Notes under the pieces: model-generated
Seen by the model: only the letters and a program-made list of their open reading frames with translations
Database searches by the model: none
Told to the model about the DNA's origin: nothing
Shown: in pieces, positions 19,024 to 24,810 of the stretch
How positions within the stretch are numbered: the first letter of the stretch is position 1
Layout: every line of letters begins with the position of its first letter
IMG/VR virus record: IMGVR_UViG_3300047322_000763
Span: 1 to 24,810 of that record
Origin: a virus
Reading direction: 5' to 3' (one strand)
Length of the DNA stretch: 24,810 nucleotides
Translations under genes and position numbers: made by a program

Positions 19024-19469
19024 TTGGTGGCATTGGAACCATCTACAGCGGCATCAAGGGCGCCACCGACGCGCAGGCGAGCGCTCAGGCCGAATGGAAC
19101 GCCAACGACGCCCTGGCTCAGTACGGGGCGCGCAACGCCACGCTGAAAGGCACGGCGGACGCCAGCAACGCGCGAGCCCTTGGCGCTCAAGTCCAGGCCG
19201 GACAGAAGGTCGCCTACACCAACAGCGGCGTGGACTCGACCGTCGGCACGGCGGCGGCCGTGCAAGCCGACACTGCTGGCCAGTCTGAACTCGACGCGCA
19301 GACGGCGAAGAACAACGCAGCGCGACAGGCCTGGGGCTTCAAGGTTCAGCAAGAGCAGGCGGCGCAGACGTACCGGGCAAAGGTTGCCTCCGCGCAGAAC
19401 CAAGGCACGGCCAGCGTGCTCAGCGGCGCAGGGCAACTCATTGGCGGCGCGGGGGGAATGTTCGGATGA
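19011..19469 (+). CDS. Internal virion protein, T7 gp14-like (152 aa)
   Basis: A core protein ejected with the DNA and placed in the outer membrane in T7. ATG at 19011 with GGAG near 19000 starts it inside the previous gene. The N-terminus MIGGIGTIYSGIKGATDAQA and the C-terminus LSGAGQLIGGAGGMFG are glycine-rich hydrophobic ends framing a helical Ala/Gln/Asn-rich core (NNAARQAWGFKVQQEQAAQT). T7 gp14 is 196 aa. The next gene starts in an ATGA overlap. The T7-like gene order supports the assignment. Confidence 0.76.
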   Translation: MGSMIGGIGTIYSGIKGATDAQASAQAEWNANDALAQYGARNATLKGTADASNARALGAQVQAGQKVAYTNSGVDSTVGTAAAVQADTAGQSELDAQTAKNNAARQAWGFKVQQEQAAQTYRAKVASAQNQGTASVLSGAGQLIGGAGGMFG

Positions 19470-21511
19470 AAGTCCCCATCTATCAGCGACAGGTTGAGCA
19501 AAGCGCCGGTGGCGTGCCCGGCCACGTTGGCGGCATGCCAGACAGCAATGCGGAAGCCATCGGGCGCGGCCTCACTGTGGTGGGTCAGGGGTTTGACTCG
19601 GCCATCTCGCAGCAACGGAAAGACGACGCCGAGTATCAGCGCCAGCTAGACGAGGCGCGCCACAAGGCCGACGTCACCGCTGCGCGCAATGCCCTGACGC
19701 AGTGGCAGGACTACGAAACGACGGTGCTGCACGGGAGCGGGTCACAACAGCAAGCCGTTCCAGGCGTGGCCGGCAACGATGGCGCCAGCGCGCCTCCGTC
19801 CGACGCCGATATCTCGGCAGCGGGCGAGAAAACCGTGACGGTGTTGACGCCTGAGCCTGGGGCCTTTGCCGAGTCGCTCAAGACACCAGACGCGCCGCAG
19901 GGTCCAGGGTTCCTGCAGATGCGCGGCATGGACGCAGTCGGCTCAAGCACTAACGCCTACGATGCACTCAAGAAGCGGCAACAGGATTTGCTCAATGGCC
20001 TGACCAACGACAAACAGCGCGAGCTTTTCCAGCAGGAGAGCGACGGGCTGCTCGTTAGCTCACGCCGCCGCATCGAGGACCATGCCGCGCAGCAAATCGG
20101 GGTCGGTCAAGAGGACTCCCTCAAGTCGGCTCGGGCCACAGCGCTGAACACCATCGCCAATAACTACACCGACCCCAGCGTGGTGCAGCAGCAGGTGTCG
20201 AGCGTCATCGGTCCAGCGCACGCCCTGCTCGCCGGTCGCCCCGCCGCAGAGAAGCAGTTCGAAGCCGAAATGATGCAGGACGTCGCCTCGACTCGGCTCA
20301 ACCAGTACATCGCGAATAAGGACTGGAAGGGCGCGCAGACGCTCTACTCGCAAGTCAAGGACCAGCTCGGAATCAAGGCCGACCATTTCGAGAACGTCAT
20401 CAACATCGAACGCGACAGGCAACAGGGTGACGCCGCAGCGCTGCAGGTTGTGAACAGCGCCCGCAAGCCGAACGGCTTCATTGATGAGGCCAAGGCCGTC
20501 GCGACGTTTGAGGCAATTCCCAAGGACACGCGAAGCGATGCCGCCAGGGTGGCTTTTGACCACTTCCTGACGCTCGAGAAAGCGCACGAGACGTCGGTGA
20601 AGTCCGACAACTTCGACGCAGCGCTGTCGGCATACCTGCAAAACAAGAACATCAACGACGTGCCCCCGGCCACCAAGGCGTGGATGATTGGCGACGGCAA
20701 GACGCCAGGCAATGACCCGAAGGCATGGCAGTCACTGTTGCAGATCTCCAATGCGGACGGGGCGCACGCTCGCGGAGCTGGTCCGTCTGATGATCAGCGC
20801 CGCGCGATGACGCAGTTCGAGGTGGATCTGCACGACCACCCCGACAAGTACGCCACGATGAGCGAGCCGGAGTTCCACGCCACCGTCTGGCCCATGCTCT
20901 CGAAGAACGACCGCGAACGTGCTGGCGCTCTCTTCGCCACGGCGCACGGTCAGGCCGCCAAGCCGGGAACCATCACGCCGGAAGAGAACAACATGCTGCT
21001 CCAGAAGGGGCGCGACGCCGGCCTCTTTGGACCGAAGGGCAAGGACCCGGCGCAGTGGGACGGAGAAGCGGCCGACTTCTACTACAAGGCGACCGAGGTT
21101 CTGCGCGAGCAGGCGACGGCGTACCGCCGCGCCAAGGGCGAGGCGCCACCCTTCAAGCTCATGGAGGAGTGGACCAACAACCTCCTCGTCAAGGGCAAGA
21201 TTCCGGGCTCCGGCTACTTCGGCACCAACTTCGGCGCAGGCGGCAAGACACGGCTCGAGGCGCTGACGAAAGGCCCGGACACCAAGTTCGAGCCCGAGTG
21301 GACCGACGAGCAGAAGTCCGAAGTGGTCAAGGGCATGCGCGCGCGCGGCATCGAGCCCACCGACCAGAAGATTGATTCCGCACTCCGGGCGGCCCACGGC
21401 TTCGCAGCGCCCCCTGTTCAGCAACCTGCAGCTTCAGCTACTTCGTCGAAAGACGTCTCGTCCGAGTGGGGTCTCGACTTGAGTCAGCCGACACCCGACT
21501 ACGGAGACTGA
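19466..21511 (+). CDS. Internal virion protein, T7 gp15-like position (681 aa)
   Basis: A long helical ejection protein of the inner core. It opens KVPIYQRQVEQSAGGVPGHV and is dominated by Gln/Ala/Glu/Lys-rich helices (e.g. FDSAISQQRKDDAEYQRQLD, then ARNALTQWQDYETTVLHGSG). Blocks such as ALKKRQQDLLNGLTNDKQRE and LFQQESDGLLVSSRRRIEDH are typical of podovirus internal proteins. T7 gp15 is 747 aa. No lysozyme or nuclease motif is recognised. It is coupled by ATGA to the gp14-like gene and followed at once by the giant protein gene. Confidence 0.72.
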   Translation: MKVPIYQRQVEQSAGGVPGHVGGMPDSNAEAIGRGLTVVGQGFDSAISQQRKDDAEYQRQLDEARHKADVTAARNALTQWQDYETTVLHGSGSQQQAVPGVAGNDGASAPPSDADISAAGEKTVTVLTPEPGAFAESLKTPDAPQGPGFLQMRGMDAVGSSTNAYDALKKRQQDLLNGLTNDKQRELFQQESDGLLVSSRRRIEDHAAQQIGVGQEDSLKSARATALNTIANNYTDPSVVQQQVSSVIGPAHALLAGRPAAEKQFEAEMMQDVASTRLNQYIANKDWKGAQTLYSQVKDQLGIKADHFENVINIERDRQQGDAAALQVVNSARKPNGFIDEAKAVATFEAIPKDTRSDAARVAFDHFLTLEKAHETSVKSDNFDAALSAYLQNKNINDVPPATKAWMIGDGKTPGNDPKAWQSLLQISNADGAHARGAGPSDDQRRAMTQFEVDLHDHPDKYATMSEPEFHATVWPMLSKNDRERAGALFATAHGQAAKPGTITPEENNMLLQKGRDAGLFGPKGKDPAQWDGEAADFYYKATEVLREQATAYRRAKGEAPPFKLMEEWTNNLLVKGKIPGSGYFGTNFGAGGKTRLEALTKGPDTKFEPEWTDEQKSEVVKGMRARGIEPTDQKIDSALRAAHGFAAPPVQQPAASATSSKDVSSEWGLDLSQPTPDYGD

Positions 21512-21512
21512 C

Positions 21513-24500
21513 GTGCCCGACCTCTCAGAAGTGCTGGATCAGATGAAGGCCGCCGAGGCCGCGCCCGCCGCGCCCGACGACCCCTCCAGCCCTCCCAAGT
21601 CCAAGTTCGAACTCGCCTACAAGGGCGACGACGGCAAGCTCGACGTTCAGCCGGATTCCGGCCAGCCCGCGCCCGACCCAGGGACGGCAGTCCCCGAGAA
21701 GCTCACGAAGTCTGTGAGCCCGGTCGATGACGCGCTCGACCAGATGAAGGCCGAGGAAGACCGCCTTCGAGATCTCGGTGCAAAGCAACTCCAGTGGCGC
21801 GTCGAGAACGACAAGGCGGACCCGAATCGCCGAGCCGAGGTGCTTCGGTACTCCGGCGCATCGGGCCTGGCCCCCGACTTCGTCGAGCAGAACCTCGACG
21901 CGGTGAAGGCCAGGGTCGACGCGGTGGCTACGAAGGATGACTGGGCGCGCGTCTCGTACCGGCAGCCCGGCCTCGTGAAGATGCTGCAGGCCACGCCCGA
22001 GGCGCTGCCGCTGGTGAAAGATGACTCGGCGAACCTTGCTGGCGTCGAGTGGGCCCTGGGCAGCTGGGGTCCGAATGGCTTCCAGGGCGGTGCCCCCTTC
22101 CACGCAATCTGGGACGCCATCAACGACCAGCGCACTGTCGCACGCCAGTTCAGCGAGGCGATCGATGGCCCTGGAAGTGGACCCGAGAATCAATCGGCCA
22201 TCCGCGCCTACGAGGAGCAGTATTCGAACAAGGACTACGGCGACAACGGGCCGATCAGCACGGCAGTGATTGCCACGGCCCGAATGCTCCCCTACTTGGC
22301 AATGGACCTCACGGCACGCGCCGGAGGTGGAGCGGTTGGGGCTCTCGTCGCTGGCGGTGAGGCCGGCGCCGCTGGTGTCGAGACCGGACCGGGTGCGGCG
22401 GTTGCGGCCACCGGTGGAGCGGCTTTCGGCGCTGGTGTCGGTCAGTTCGTCTCTGCCGGCCTGTTCAACTATTACGAGGCGCTGGGCCCTAGCTACTGGA
22501 AGCTGATCAACCTCAAGGACACGAACGGGCAGCCGCTCGACCCGGAGGTGGCACAGGCGCTCGCACAGGGCAGCGCGGTAATCACTGGCGGCCTGATGAG
22601 TGGCCTCACCGGAAAGCTCGGAGGATTTCTCACCAAGCCGCTCATGGCCCGCCTTGGCGCCACGACGGTCGAGAAGGCGCTCACCGACGCAAGCGTGGCC
22701 AGCATCATCAAGCGAGGCGGCCTCGAGTTCGGCAAGCACTGGGTCACCGGTGCAACCATCATGGGCGCCGTCGCTGGGGTGAATCAGGCGACGGTGAACG
22801 CGGCCGAAGACATCTCCGGCCAGCCGTTCGACGAACAGGGCTCGGTCACCAAGGCCGCAGCGGACGGCTTCATCGGCGGCCTGCGCGACATGTGGCTGAT
22901 TTCGGCCATCGGCCCAGGGCGCGAGCTGGTGAAGGACATCGGCCGTTACCGCTCCAGCGCCGAGGGTGCCGCTCGGCTCGAGGCGATGACCGAAAGCGCG
23001 AACGCCTCCAAGCTTCTCGAGCGCAGCCCGGAACTCTTCCAAAAGGCCGTCGAGCAGATGAAGACCGAGAAGGGCACGGTCAAGAACGTCTACGTGCCAG
23101 TGGAAGAGTGGACGCGCTACTGGCAGGACAAGAAGCTGGACCCGGGAGAGGTGGCGGCAAAGGTCATCGGCGACGGTGGCAAGGCGTTCTCTGAGGCGAT
23201 GGGCACAAAGGGTGACCTCGCCATCCCCGCCGAGAAGTATCTCAAGAGCATCGCCAAGACCGAGCACGCTGCAGGCCTGGCGATGGACGCGAAGCTCTTC
23301 CCGGATGACCTCACGCCGCGGCAATTCACCGAGGAGCGCAAGGCGCAAGAGAAGCGGCTCGAGGAAGAGGCGAACCGGCGAGCGCCAGAGCTGGAGCAGG
23401 GCAAGACCGAGGTGCGGGACTTCATCCGCGAGCAGGCGGTCAAGGCGGGAATCGGTCGCGACGTGGCGAAACAGAACGCGGACCTCGTCGCGGAGTACGT
23501 CGGCACGATGGCGCTCCGTCTTGGCGTCTCGGTGCCCGAGGCCGCGACGCTTGGCAATCTCGGCGGCCTGCGGGTGCTGGGGCCGAAGGGTCAGACCGTG
23601 GCCGCCGCCGCGGTGCAACACTTCCAGGGCGCATTGCGGCCCACAGCCGAACGGTTCCTCGAGTCACGCCTCGCTACCATGTCGCCTGAGGCACGCGCGC
23701 AGGAAACCTTCATCGATTCGACCACCGGCCTGCGCGAGCGTCAGGTCATCGACCAAGGGCCAGTCCCAGAAGGCAACCAGGTCGCGGTCATCACCTCGCC
23801 AGACGTGAAGGGCATCAACGACCATCCGACAGCGGGTGGTCACAACGTCGCCAACGACATGATGCGGGCCGTTGCCACTGGCGTCGGTTCTGAGCATCCA
23901 GAGGCGGCACGAGGCGGCACGAACTTCGTGCTTCACGTGAAGGACCAGGCGGATCTCGAACGCACCCTAGAACGGGCGCGCAAGGCGACCGGGAATGAGA
24001 ACCTCAATCTCATGGGCGCAGTGGGTGAGAATGCCGACAAGGCCTTCGCTGCGTTGGATGCGAAGGTGGAGCAGATGCGCAAGGAGAAGGCGCTACCCGA
24101 GCGCGGTGGCCTCAACCCGAAGCTCGATGTCGCTGGGCTCAAGTTCGGGCCCGAGCGCGCCGCTGGAACGGTGCCACCCGAGCTGGTGCATGAAATTGGA
24201 GGCCTGTCGGATCAGCAGTACGCCCAGCGCGTCTACGTCGACAAGGTGAAGGTCGGCGGCAGGGACGTGCCCACTGGCCTGCTCGCAAAGAAGGCGTGGG
24301 AGGCAATTCCTCGGAAAGCCAACGCCGCGATGCTGGACATGCGCGGGCTGAAGGACGCCAACAACAAGTACGGCAAGGAGACTGGCAACGGGATGTTGCT
24401 CGCCTTCGGTGACCTCATCGCGCACCTTGGCGGCTCAAGTTTCGACGCCACACATCTGTCTGGCGACGAGTACGCACTCCAGCACGACGACCCTGTGGAG

Positions 24501-24810
24501 CTGCAGCGGTTCGTTAACCGCTTGAAAGAACGCGTCGGATATCTGGGCCTGAAGCACTTCGACGCAGCAACTGGCAAGACAGAACCGATCTCCGTAGACT
24601 TTCGGCATGGCATCGGAACCGACCTCGACACCGCAGACCGAGCCCTCAACACCAAAAAGCGAGCGGAAGTCGGGGCTGGTGATCGAGGACAAGAGAACCG
24701 GCAAGGTGATTTGGCACCCGGACCAGAGCCTCGAAGAGAACCGAACAGCCCTCAAGCAGTGGAACGTGGAGCAGGACAAGGCCGAGGAGCAACGCGGCAG
24801 TTCCAGCGAG
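21513..24810 (+). CDS. Giant ejected virion protein, gp16 position, with two tandem GGDEF-like domains (partial, at least 1099 aa)
   Basis: This starts with GTG at 21513, one base after the previous TGA; the frame is open to the window end. T7's last core gene (gp16, 1318 aa) is in this position. The N-terminal ~260 residues are acidic, with a repeated LDQMKA. Residues about 265-330 and 400-450 are Ala/Gly-rich and hydrophobic (GAGVGQFVSAGLFNYYEALG, TGATIMGAVAGVNQATVNAA), which would suit membrane passage. Residues 735-850 read as a degenerate GGDEF domain: STTGL at 736-740, SPDVKGIND ending at 770, and GGTNF at 801-805 instead of GGDEF. Residues ~920-1045 are a second, more intact one: PTGL, LDMRGLKDANNKYG with D942 and N950, and SGDEY at 983-987, then ADRAL at 1041-1045. 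A transglycosylase motif like that of T7 gp16 is not seen in the visible part. From about 24660 the frame no longer looks coding; see the separate entry. Confidence 0.75.
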   Translation, partial: MPDLSEVLDQMKAAEAAPAAPDDPSSPPKSKFELAYKGDDGKLDVQPDSGQPAPDPGTAVPEKLTKSVSPVDDALDQMKAEEDRLRDLGAKQLQWRVENDKADPNRRAEVLRYSGASGLAPDFVEQNLDAVKARVDAVATKDDWARVSYRQPGLVKMLQATPEALPLVKDDSANLAGVEWALGSWGPNGFQGGAPFHAIWDAINDQRTVARQFSEAIDGPGSGPENQSAIRAYEEQYSNKDYGDNGPISTAVIATARMLPYLAMDLTARAGGGAVGALVAGGEAGAAGVETGPGAAVAATGGAAFGAGVGQFVSAGLFNYYEALGPSYWKLINLKDTNGQPLDPEVAQALAQGSAVITGGLMSGLTGKLGGFLTKPLMARLGATTVEKALTDASVASIIKRGGLEFGKHWVTGATIMGAVAGVNQATVNAAEDISGQPFDEQGSVTKAAADGFIGGLRDMWLISAIGPGRELVKDIGRYRSSAEGAARLEAMTESANASKLLERSPELFQKAVEQMKTEKGTVKNVYVPVEEWTRYWQDKKLDPGEVAAKVIGDGGKAFSEAMGTKGDLAIPAEKYLKSIAKTEHAAGLAMDAKLFPDDLTPRQFTEERKAQEKRLEEEANRRAPELEQGKTEVRDFIREQAVKAGIGRDVAKQNADLVAEYVGTMALRLGVSVPEAATLGNLGGLRVLGPKGQTVAAAAVQHFQGALRPTAERFLESRLATMSPEARAQETFIDSTTGLRERQVIDQGPVPEGNQVAVITSPDVKGINDHPTAGGHNVANDMMRAVATGVGSEHPEAARGGTNFVLHVKDQADLERTLERARKATGNENLNLMGAVGENADKAFAALDAKVEQMRKEKALPERGGLNPKLDVAGLKFGPERAAGTVPPELVHEIGGLSDQQYAQRVYVDKVKVGGRDVPTGLLAKKAWEAIPRKANAAMLDMRGLKDANNKYGKETGNGMLLAFGDLIAHLGGSSFDATHLSGDEYALQHDDPVELQRFVNRLKERVGYLGLKHFDAATGKTEPISVDFRHGIGTDLDTADRALNTKKRAEVGAGDRGQENRQGDLAPGPEPRREPNSPQAVERGAGQGRGATRQFQR
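23901..23920 (+). repeat. Perfect tandem duplication of a 10-bp word at the first GGDEF-like loop
   Basis: GAGGCGGCAC occurs twice in direct contact. The duplication spans the codons EAARGGT at the signature loop of the first domain. The unit is not a multiple of three, yet the reading frame is coherent on both sides. It could be a recent small duplication or chance in GC-rich sequence. Confidence 0.7.
24654..24810 (+). other. Apparent +1 change of coding frame after an A5 tract (24654-24658)
   Basis: Up to AAC ACC AAA AAG at 24648-24659 the main frame looks coding. Beyond it, the main frame has poor third positions and odd composition (EVGAGDRGQENRQGDLAPG). The +1 frame instead reads SERKSGLVIEDKRTGKVIWH and then PDQSLEENRTALKQWNVEQD, with G/C-rich third positions, and is also open to the end. 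ATG at 24607 and GTG at 24679 exist in that frame, but neither has a good ribosome-binding site. Three readings are possible: programmed +1 frameshift, a single-A indel (natural or sequencing), or a next gene that overlaps deeply. Confidence 0.55.

Follow-up and report, generated by a model that had tools for sequence, protein, structure and literature searches.

Tandem GGDEF domains in a giant polyvalent protein of an epsilon15/BPP-1-like podovirus: a candidate virion-delivered nucleotidyl cyclase

We analysed the IMG/VR virus record IMGVR_UViG_3300047322_000763, the whole of which (24,810 bases) is referred to here as the window, and in particular the open reading frame of a giant protein at 21513..>24809 (+ strand), which has 1099 codons and runs open off the 3′ end of the contig, so that the protein is incomplete. 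An initial annotation had placed two tandem GGDEF domains in this protein, and profile searches together with a structural model confirm such domains at residues 719-850 and 892-1058. Judged by its residues, the first domain is clearly catalytically dead, and the second keeps most of the catalytic residues and belongs to a compact phage subfamily. The best overall explanation, to which we assign a probability of about 0.55, is that the giant polyvalent protein would deliver a nucleotidyl cyclase with the virion and alter early cyclic-dinucleotide signalling in the host. Comparisons below refer to an intact homologue on another viral contig, L162, and to the residue numbering of PleD. The two domains are located as follows:

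23667..24062, + strand: GGDEF domain 1, residues 719-850, degenerate (profile match, shuffle controls, direct BLASTP match with domain 2, profile of domain-1 copies, AlphaFold2)
24186..24686, + strand: GGDEF domain 2, residues 892-1058, putative catalytic domain of the compact phage subfamily (Pfam GGDEF, AlphaFold2, Foldseek; 73% identity with L162 across residues 905-1050)

Domain 2 matched the Pfam family GGDEF (PF00990) over residues 935-1016 with E-values of 0.007 in the whole-protein scan and 1.2e-5 in a genome search. Both PF00990 matches in the window are under the curated cut-off, and the subfamily members L165-L169 and L171 exceed it. Against a profile of seven cellular GGDEF sequences, domain 2 scored 49.7 bits and domain 1 scored 13.7 bits, with top scores of 9.1 and 6.9 bits, respectively, among 2000 shuffles. 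Because the seven sequences had been selected through matches to domain 2, this test is partly circular for domain 2, whereas the Pfam matches are not, and independent support for domain 2 therefore comes from the Pfam, PDB and structure results. The two domains also matched each other directly by BLASTP (E-value 2e-4), exceeding all 1926 scored shuffles. A profile built from domain-1 copies alone matched single-GGDEF phage proteins with E-values down to 1e-14, and it matched none of 15 giant proteins lacking GGDEF (best 0.087).

The palm-like fold anticipated for residues 700-1060 was recovered by AlphaFold2, which, with a 48-row alignment, gave a predicted local distance difference test score (pLDDT) of 92.1 and a predicted TM-score (pTM) of 0.86, both halves having the GGDEF order of strands and helices. 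Few alignment rows cover domain 1 (the window, L162, L163 and L164), and its pLDDT is still approximately 95; the pLDDT of only 39.5 obtained without an alignment is uninformative. The top PDB matches of the model in Foldseek were PleD, a T. maritima GGDEF protein, DgcB, WspR and DgcR, with E-values of 4e-7 to 1e-4 and TM-scores of approximately 0.3 when normalised by the two-domain query, half of which is spanned by single-domain targets, or 0.5-0.65 when normalised by the target. No unrelated family gave a better match, and the alignment profile matched solved GGDEF chains in the PDB with E-values down to 4e-16. Comparison of the two segments as single sequences by hhalign gave a probability of 2.7, which is uninformative without alignments.

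The residues quoted in the initial annotation (D942, N950, N959, GGTNF at 801-805, HLSGDEY at 981-987 and ADRAL at 1041-1045) are correct, and its division into a non-catalytic first domain and a second domain that retains most of the catalytic residues stands. The positions that decide this, with counts from 67 viral and 88 cellular GGDEF copies, are the following:

23913..23927, + strand: GGTNF 801-805, domain 1 GGDEF loop without acidic residues (from the sequence; EGTNF in L162)
24336..24338, + strand: Asp942, metal-ligand position (PleD Asp327); Asp in 63/67 viral copies
24360..24362, + strand: Asn950, guanine-contact position (PleD Asn335); Asn in 67/67 viral copies
24387..24389, + strand: Asn959, base-specificity position (PleD Asp344); Asn in 11/67 and Asp in 55/67 viral copies, Asp in 88/88 cellular copies; identical in L162
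24453..24473, + strand: HLSGDEY 981-987, domain 2 GGDEF loop; His at the Arg366 position in 45/67 viral copies, Arg in 88/88 cellular copies
24657..24659, + strand: Lys1049, phosphate-contact position (PleD Lys442); Lys in 59/60 viral copies having a residue there

Domain 1 has lost the metal-binding aspartate, with T761 at the Asp327 position, and keeps Lys766, Asn769 and the GH dipeptide. Domain 2 keeps D942, K947, N950, the SGDEY loop with its GDE core and K1049. The residue set expected of an active diguanylate cyclase (the metal Asp, Asn335, [G/S/A]G[D/E]E[F/Y] and Lys442) is complete in domain 2 and incomplete in domain 1. The aspartate associated with guanine specificity, Asp344, is replaced by Asn in both the window and L162, and domain 2 is therefore not classed as an established diguanylate cyclase. 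Enzymes with an SGDEF loop can make cyclic di-GMP (c-di-GMP; PMC8079147), and the position equivalent to Asp344 sets base preference, with Ser there accompanying cyclic GMP-AMP synthesis in Hypr enzymes (PMC6456294). The I-site motif RxxD, five residues before GGDEF, is absent from the window domains. We consider it somewhat probable that domain 2 is a purine-nucleotide cyclase, whose predicted product is c-di-GMP or, in view of Asn959, perhaps a dinucleotide that is mixed or contains adenine.

Peptide scans for close relatives using the window protein returned nothing in viral or genome contigs, whereas a GGDEF-profile scan of viral contigs did find homologues. Among these, L162 is intact at 2565 amino acids and 51% identical over window residues 52-1083; it carries LPD22, both GGDEF domains (residues 738-1085) and then the peptidase motif STLMHEVTHF at residue 1256. 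The pair thus lies in mid-protein, between the LPD22/ejection module and the HExxH peptidase motif, and its apparent place at the C-terminal side, as first annotated, is an artefact of the contig end. Because the window gene is cut there, the HExxH motif is visible only in L162, and the putative enzymatic content seen in the window is the GGDEF pair. Domain 2 is the best-conserved stretch between the two proteins (73% over residues 905-1050 versus 53% overall), and every residue checked at a catalytic position is identical. In the tree, the first domains of the window, L162 and L164 cluster together, separately from the second domains of the window and L162, so the duplication is older than the split of these lineages, and the dead-plus-live pair was inherited. 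The initial annotation had also proposed looking for the same pair in other giant phage proteins; it was found in L162 and in L163/L164.

A second GGDEF-profile scan of viral contigs yielded 58 viral loci, with GGDEF lying within open reading frames of 600-5977 amino acids in approximately 53 distinct viral contigs. The accompanying domains in these giants are ART-PolyVal, LPD1, LPD5, LPD22, LPD38, ddrB-ParB, RadC and InPase. In a tree built by a quick method, for which no root was inferred, 53 of 54 giant-protein domains stood apart from 35 cellular GGDEFs (98% support for the cellular side in the Shimodaira-Hasegawa-like approximate likelihood ratio test), L171 being the exception, and stand-alone proteins of the Yuavirus type fell in between. 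The subfamily signature is H-x-S-G-D-E-F where cellular domains have R-x-G-G-D-E-F: besides the histidine listed above, Ser occupies the Gly368 position in 47/67 viral versus 2/88 cellular copies, and the I-site is present in 1/67 versus 52/88, counts that are descriptive and not independent events because the viral copies are related by descent. Among the copies fitting the search pattern, the SxG strand and the last helix are joined by a median of 13 residues in viral and 25 in cellular domains.

The giant of L166 (at least 3205 amino acids) has GGDEF domains at 1084-1231 and 1382-1534, both keeping the GGDE motif, together with ART-PolyVal, LPD1, LPD5 and LPD38. Yuavirus PAC6 (L160:7989-8967) has a stand-alone GGDEF gene of 156 amino acids immediately upstream of an antirestriction gene. 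MT837137.1, labelled ‘Bacteriophage sp.’, was rejected as a source of a phage GGDEF protein: its long open reading frames are only of bacterial type and its diguanylate cyclase is membrane-anchored, so that this chromosomal fragment is probably host DNA.

The remaining features of the giant gene and its upstream neighbour are as follows:

21513..24809, + strand: giant polyvalent virion protein, first 1099 codons, 3′-open (open reading frame; homologue L162)
21798..22067, + strand: LPD22 domain, residues 96-185 (Pfam PF18834, E-value 1.5e-9, above cut-off)
22464..23540, + strand: conserved module of epsilon15/BPP-1-type podovirus giants, residues 318-676 (tblastn and BLASTP to 15 giants)
19466..21511, + strand: upstream internal virion protein, lysozyme-like, 681 amino acids (phrog_10475 endolysin, E-value 1.2e-13)

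By its LPD22 domain, which scores above the Pfam cut-off, and its late-gene position, the window giant is a polyvalent protein. Its gene follows portal, capsid, tail and lysozyme-like genes, an order likewise seen in relatives; a lysozyme occupies the equivalent upstream place in Carin1, PfDIW6, HU1 and ctQRb9, and the order portal, tail protein, giant is common to the window and the L162 contig. The portal (phrog_332), major head protein, Bbp16, and tail and internal virion proteins identify an epsilon15/BPP-1-like podovirus. The place assigned at first, that of T7 gp16, holds in the sense that the gene comes after portal, tail and a lysozyme-like internal protein, but a T7-type phage is ruled out by phrog_332 and Bbp16.

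Residues 318-676, which probably have a role in ejection or membrane passage, match giants of Cobetia phage Carin1, Pseudomonas phages PfDIW6 and HU1, Limnohabitans phage DC33, Vibrio phage MZH0603 and metagenomic phages. The 15 matching giants have 1900-3780 amino acids, all 15 contain LPD22, and the gene at the equivalent upstream place is lysozyme-like, internal-virion or unannotated. The shared module is separated from a conserved peptidase motif of the STFLHExGH type by a slot 62 to 1760 residues long, which in these relatives holds ART-PolyVal, PBECR5 (RNase), RadC or GNAT domains, or is short and has no effector. GGDEF is absent from the 15 module-sharing giants. Because a PF00990 search that does recover the window found no match in 80 virus and phage records reached via LPD22 giants or portal relatives, GGDEF is rare within this podovirus group. 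The longer slots, in L147, L148, L151 and other giants of the L145-L153 series, mostly have no Pfam match and are candidate cargo domains. The record of phage DC33 (PQ492659.1) says Inoviridae, yet its gene set, which includes a portal gene and one for an LPD22 giant, is that of a podovirus.

The giant would thus have its LPD22/ejection module at the N-terminus, followed by a variable cargo slot and, ahead of a long C-terminus, an HExxH peptidase motif, with the slot in the window lineage filled by a dead first GGDEF and a second GGDEF of the compact phage-specific subfamily. It is very probably packaged and ejected with the DNA. Since metal ligands are missing from domain 1, making a cyclic dinucleotide would take two copies of domain 2, contributed by adjacent subunits of what is presumably an oligomeric ejection protein, and domain 1 would act as a scaffold, a dimer partner or a nucleotide-binding regulator. 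In the weakest step, which we put forward tentatively, the product may bias host cyclic-dinucleotide signalling before phage genes are expressed, for example by swamping a cyclic-nucleotide defence or by changing the state of the host. Cyclic nucleotides drive anti-phage defences such as CBASS, type III CRISPR and Panoptes, and the counter-measures known from phages work by breaking these molecules down or sequestering them. A virion-delivered cyclase would be the opposite strategy, acting ahead of any phage gene expression.

An active enzyme fits the association with pyrophosphatase, since InPase would remove the pyrophosphate made by a cyclase; InPase is present in 13/53 GGDEF giants versus 0/15 others, the latter all being of one podovirus type, which weakens the comparison. 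In several giants (including some among L255, L169, L269, L278 and L282), a polyvalent-type InPase lies within approximately 50-150 residues of GGDEF, and in others it lies elsewhere in the chain. Other points also weigh against a virion-delivered cyclase. InPase occurs in other polyvalent contexts too, as described by Iyer et al. 2017 (PMC5512222). Domain 2 departs from the consensus at Arg944 (second Asp of DxD), Asn951 (Asp336) and Lys955 (His of GH), in addition to Asn959 for Asp344 and His981 for Arg366, and the dead-plus-live tandem has been encountered solely in the window, L162 and L163/L164.

The departures in domain 2 bear on the alternative that both copies are dead and serve as nucleotide-binding modules (sensing GTP, GDP or c-di-GMP) or as structural folding or spacing modules, as in many degenerate GGDEF proteins. 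Several of these departures at catalytic-adjacent positions are shared with L162, domain 1, with T761 at the Asp327 position and GGTNF as its loop, is clearly dead, and the window has no I-site. This alternative is nevertheless rather unlikely, because the catalytic set is kept across the subfamily (Asp327 in 63/67, Lys332 in 65/67, Asn335 in 67/67 and Glu371 in 62/67 copies), and the metal Asp, the GDE core and the Lys442 equivalent are present in the window and identical in L162, none of which a purely structural role would need. GTP sensing in ejection, as suggested by the initial annotation, found no support; its other suggestion, that a cyclic dinucleotide is made or bound, is plausible.

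An early duplication, predating the split of the window, L162 and L164 lineages, would also suit a pair acting in cis as a pseudo-heterodimer, in which the sole metal centre is that of domain 2 and domain 1 contributes by holding a base or closing the site, giving a linear dinucleotide or a cyclic mononucleotide in place of c-di-GMP. Domain 1 keeps Lys766, Asn769 and GH, the pTM of the model suggests a fixed mutual orientation of the domains, and Foldseek aligned the whole pair over approximately 320-400 columns, including to a type III CRISPR effector chain and GTP cyclohydrolase III, with TM-scores of only 0.2-0.3. Both domains of L166 keep the catalytic motif, however, and we know of no characterised GGDEF protein that works as such a cis pair, which makes this arrangement improbable. 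A spurious GGDEF match to segments of some unrelated fold can be dismissed with near certainty, since the Pfam score below its own curated cut-off is outweighed by AlphaFold2, Foldseek, profile-to-PDB matches at 1e-16, the shuffles and the intact subfamily.

A virion-delivered cyclase could be extended to a broader scheme, which we regard as doubtful: many kinds of phage would carry a dedicated, inhibition-free cyclase of the compact H-x-S-G-D-E-F clade in their particles and flood the host with cyclic dinucleotide at the onset of infection, mimicking or saturating immune signalling, and the window lineage would have a dead-plus-live pair with relaxed base choice. Under such flooding, the InPase found in about a quarter of GGDEF giants would supply the cyclase with its own pyrophosphatase.

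GGDEF domains in polyvalent proteins were noted by Iyer et al. 2017 in a short paragraph as “not very widespread”, with the suggestion that the product disturbs host cyclic-nucleotide signalling (PMC5512222). As described there, such a domain (WP_004096050.1, Acetonema longum prophage) likewise sits in a very large multidomain, presumably host-entering protein and adjoins LPD, ART and zincin-type peptidase domains. A keyword search of the main text of that paper returned no compact clade, H-x-S-G-D-E-F signature, dead-plus-live tandem or LPD22 podovirus architecture. Judged by the main texts of the open literature searched, what appears to be new is the compact clade with its signature and wide occurrence, together with the pyrophosphatase association and the dead-plus-live pair. 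The 2017 remark now becomes a delimited family of phage domains that has its own signature and fold, is represented by an intact homologue and offers exact residues to mutate.

The phage domain shares with PleD, WspR, DgcB and DgcR the fold and the positions of the metal Asp, Lys332, Asn335, [G/S]GDE[F/Y] and Lys442; it differs in having no I-site or sensor domain, in His for Arg366, in the shortened stretch connecting the SxG strand to the last helix, and in its fusion into a virion protein. Hypr enzymes such as GacA (PMC6456294) likewise combine a substituted Asp344 position with a GDE[F/Y] loop, but have Ser/Thr there where the window has Asn. The stand-alone GGDEF proteins of Yuavirus and Bordetella phages CN1/CN2/LK3 share the compact form (28% identity, E-value 1e-7, in a single comparison) and are the nearest outgroup in the tree, but they have 156 amino acids and are encoded beside an antirestriction gene, outside any giant protein. 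T7 gp16 and the N4 virion RNA polymerase are also giant internal proteins that are encoded at a late-gene position and ejected with the DNA; their cargo is different, and no sequence match to them appeared in the searches made. In a further contig, L287 (G099:C1:33911-35419), the portal match crosses one in-frame TAG, consistent with an assembly error, a broken gene or TAG recoding.

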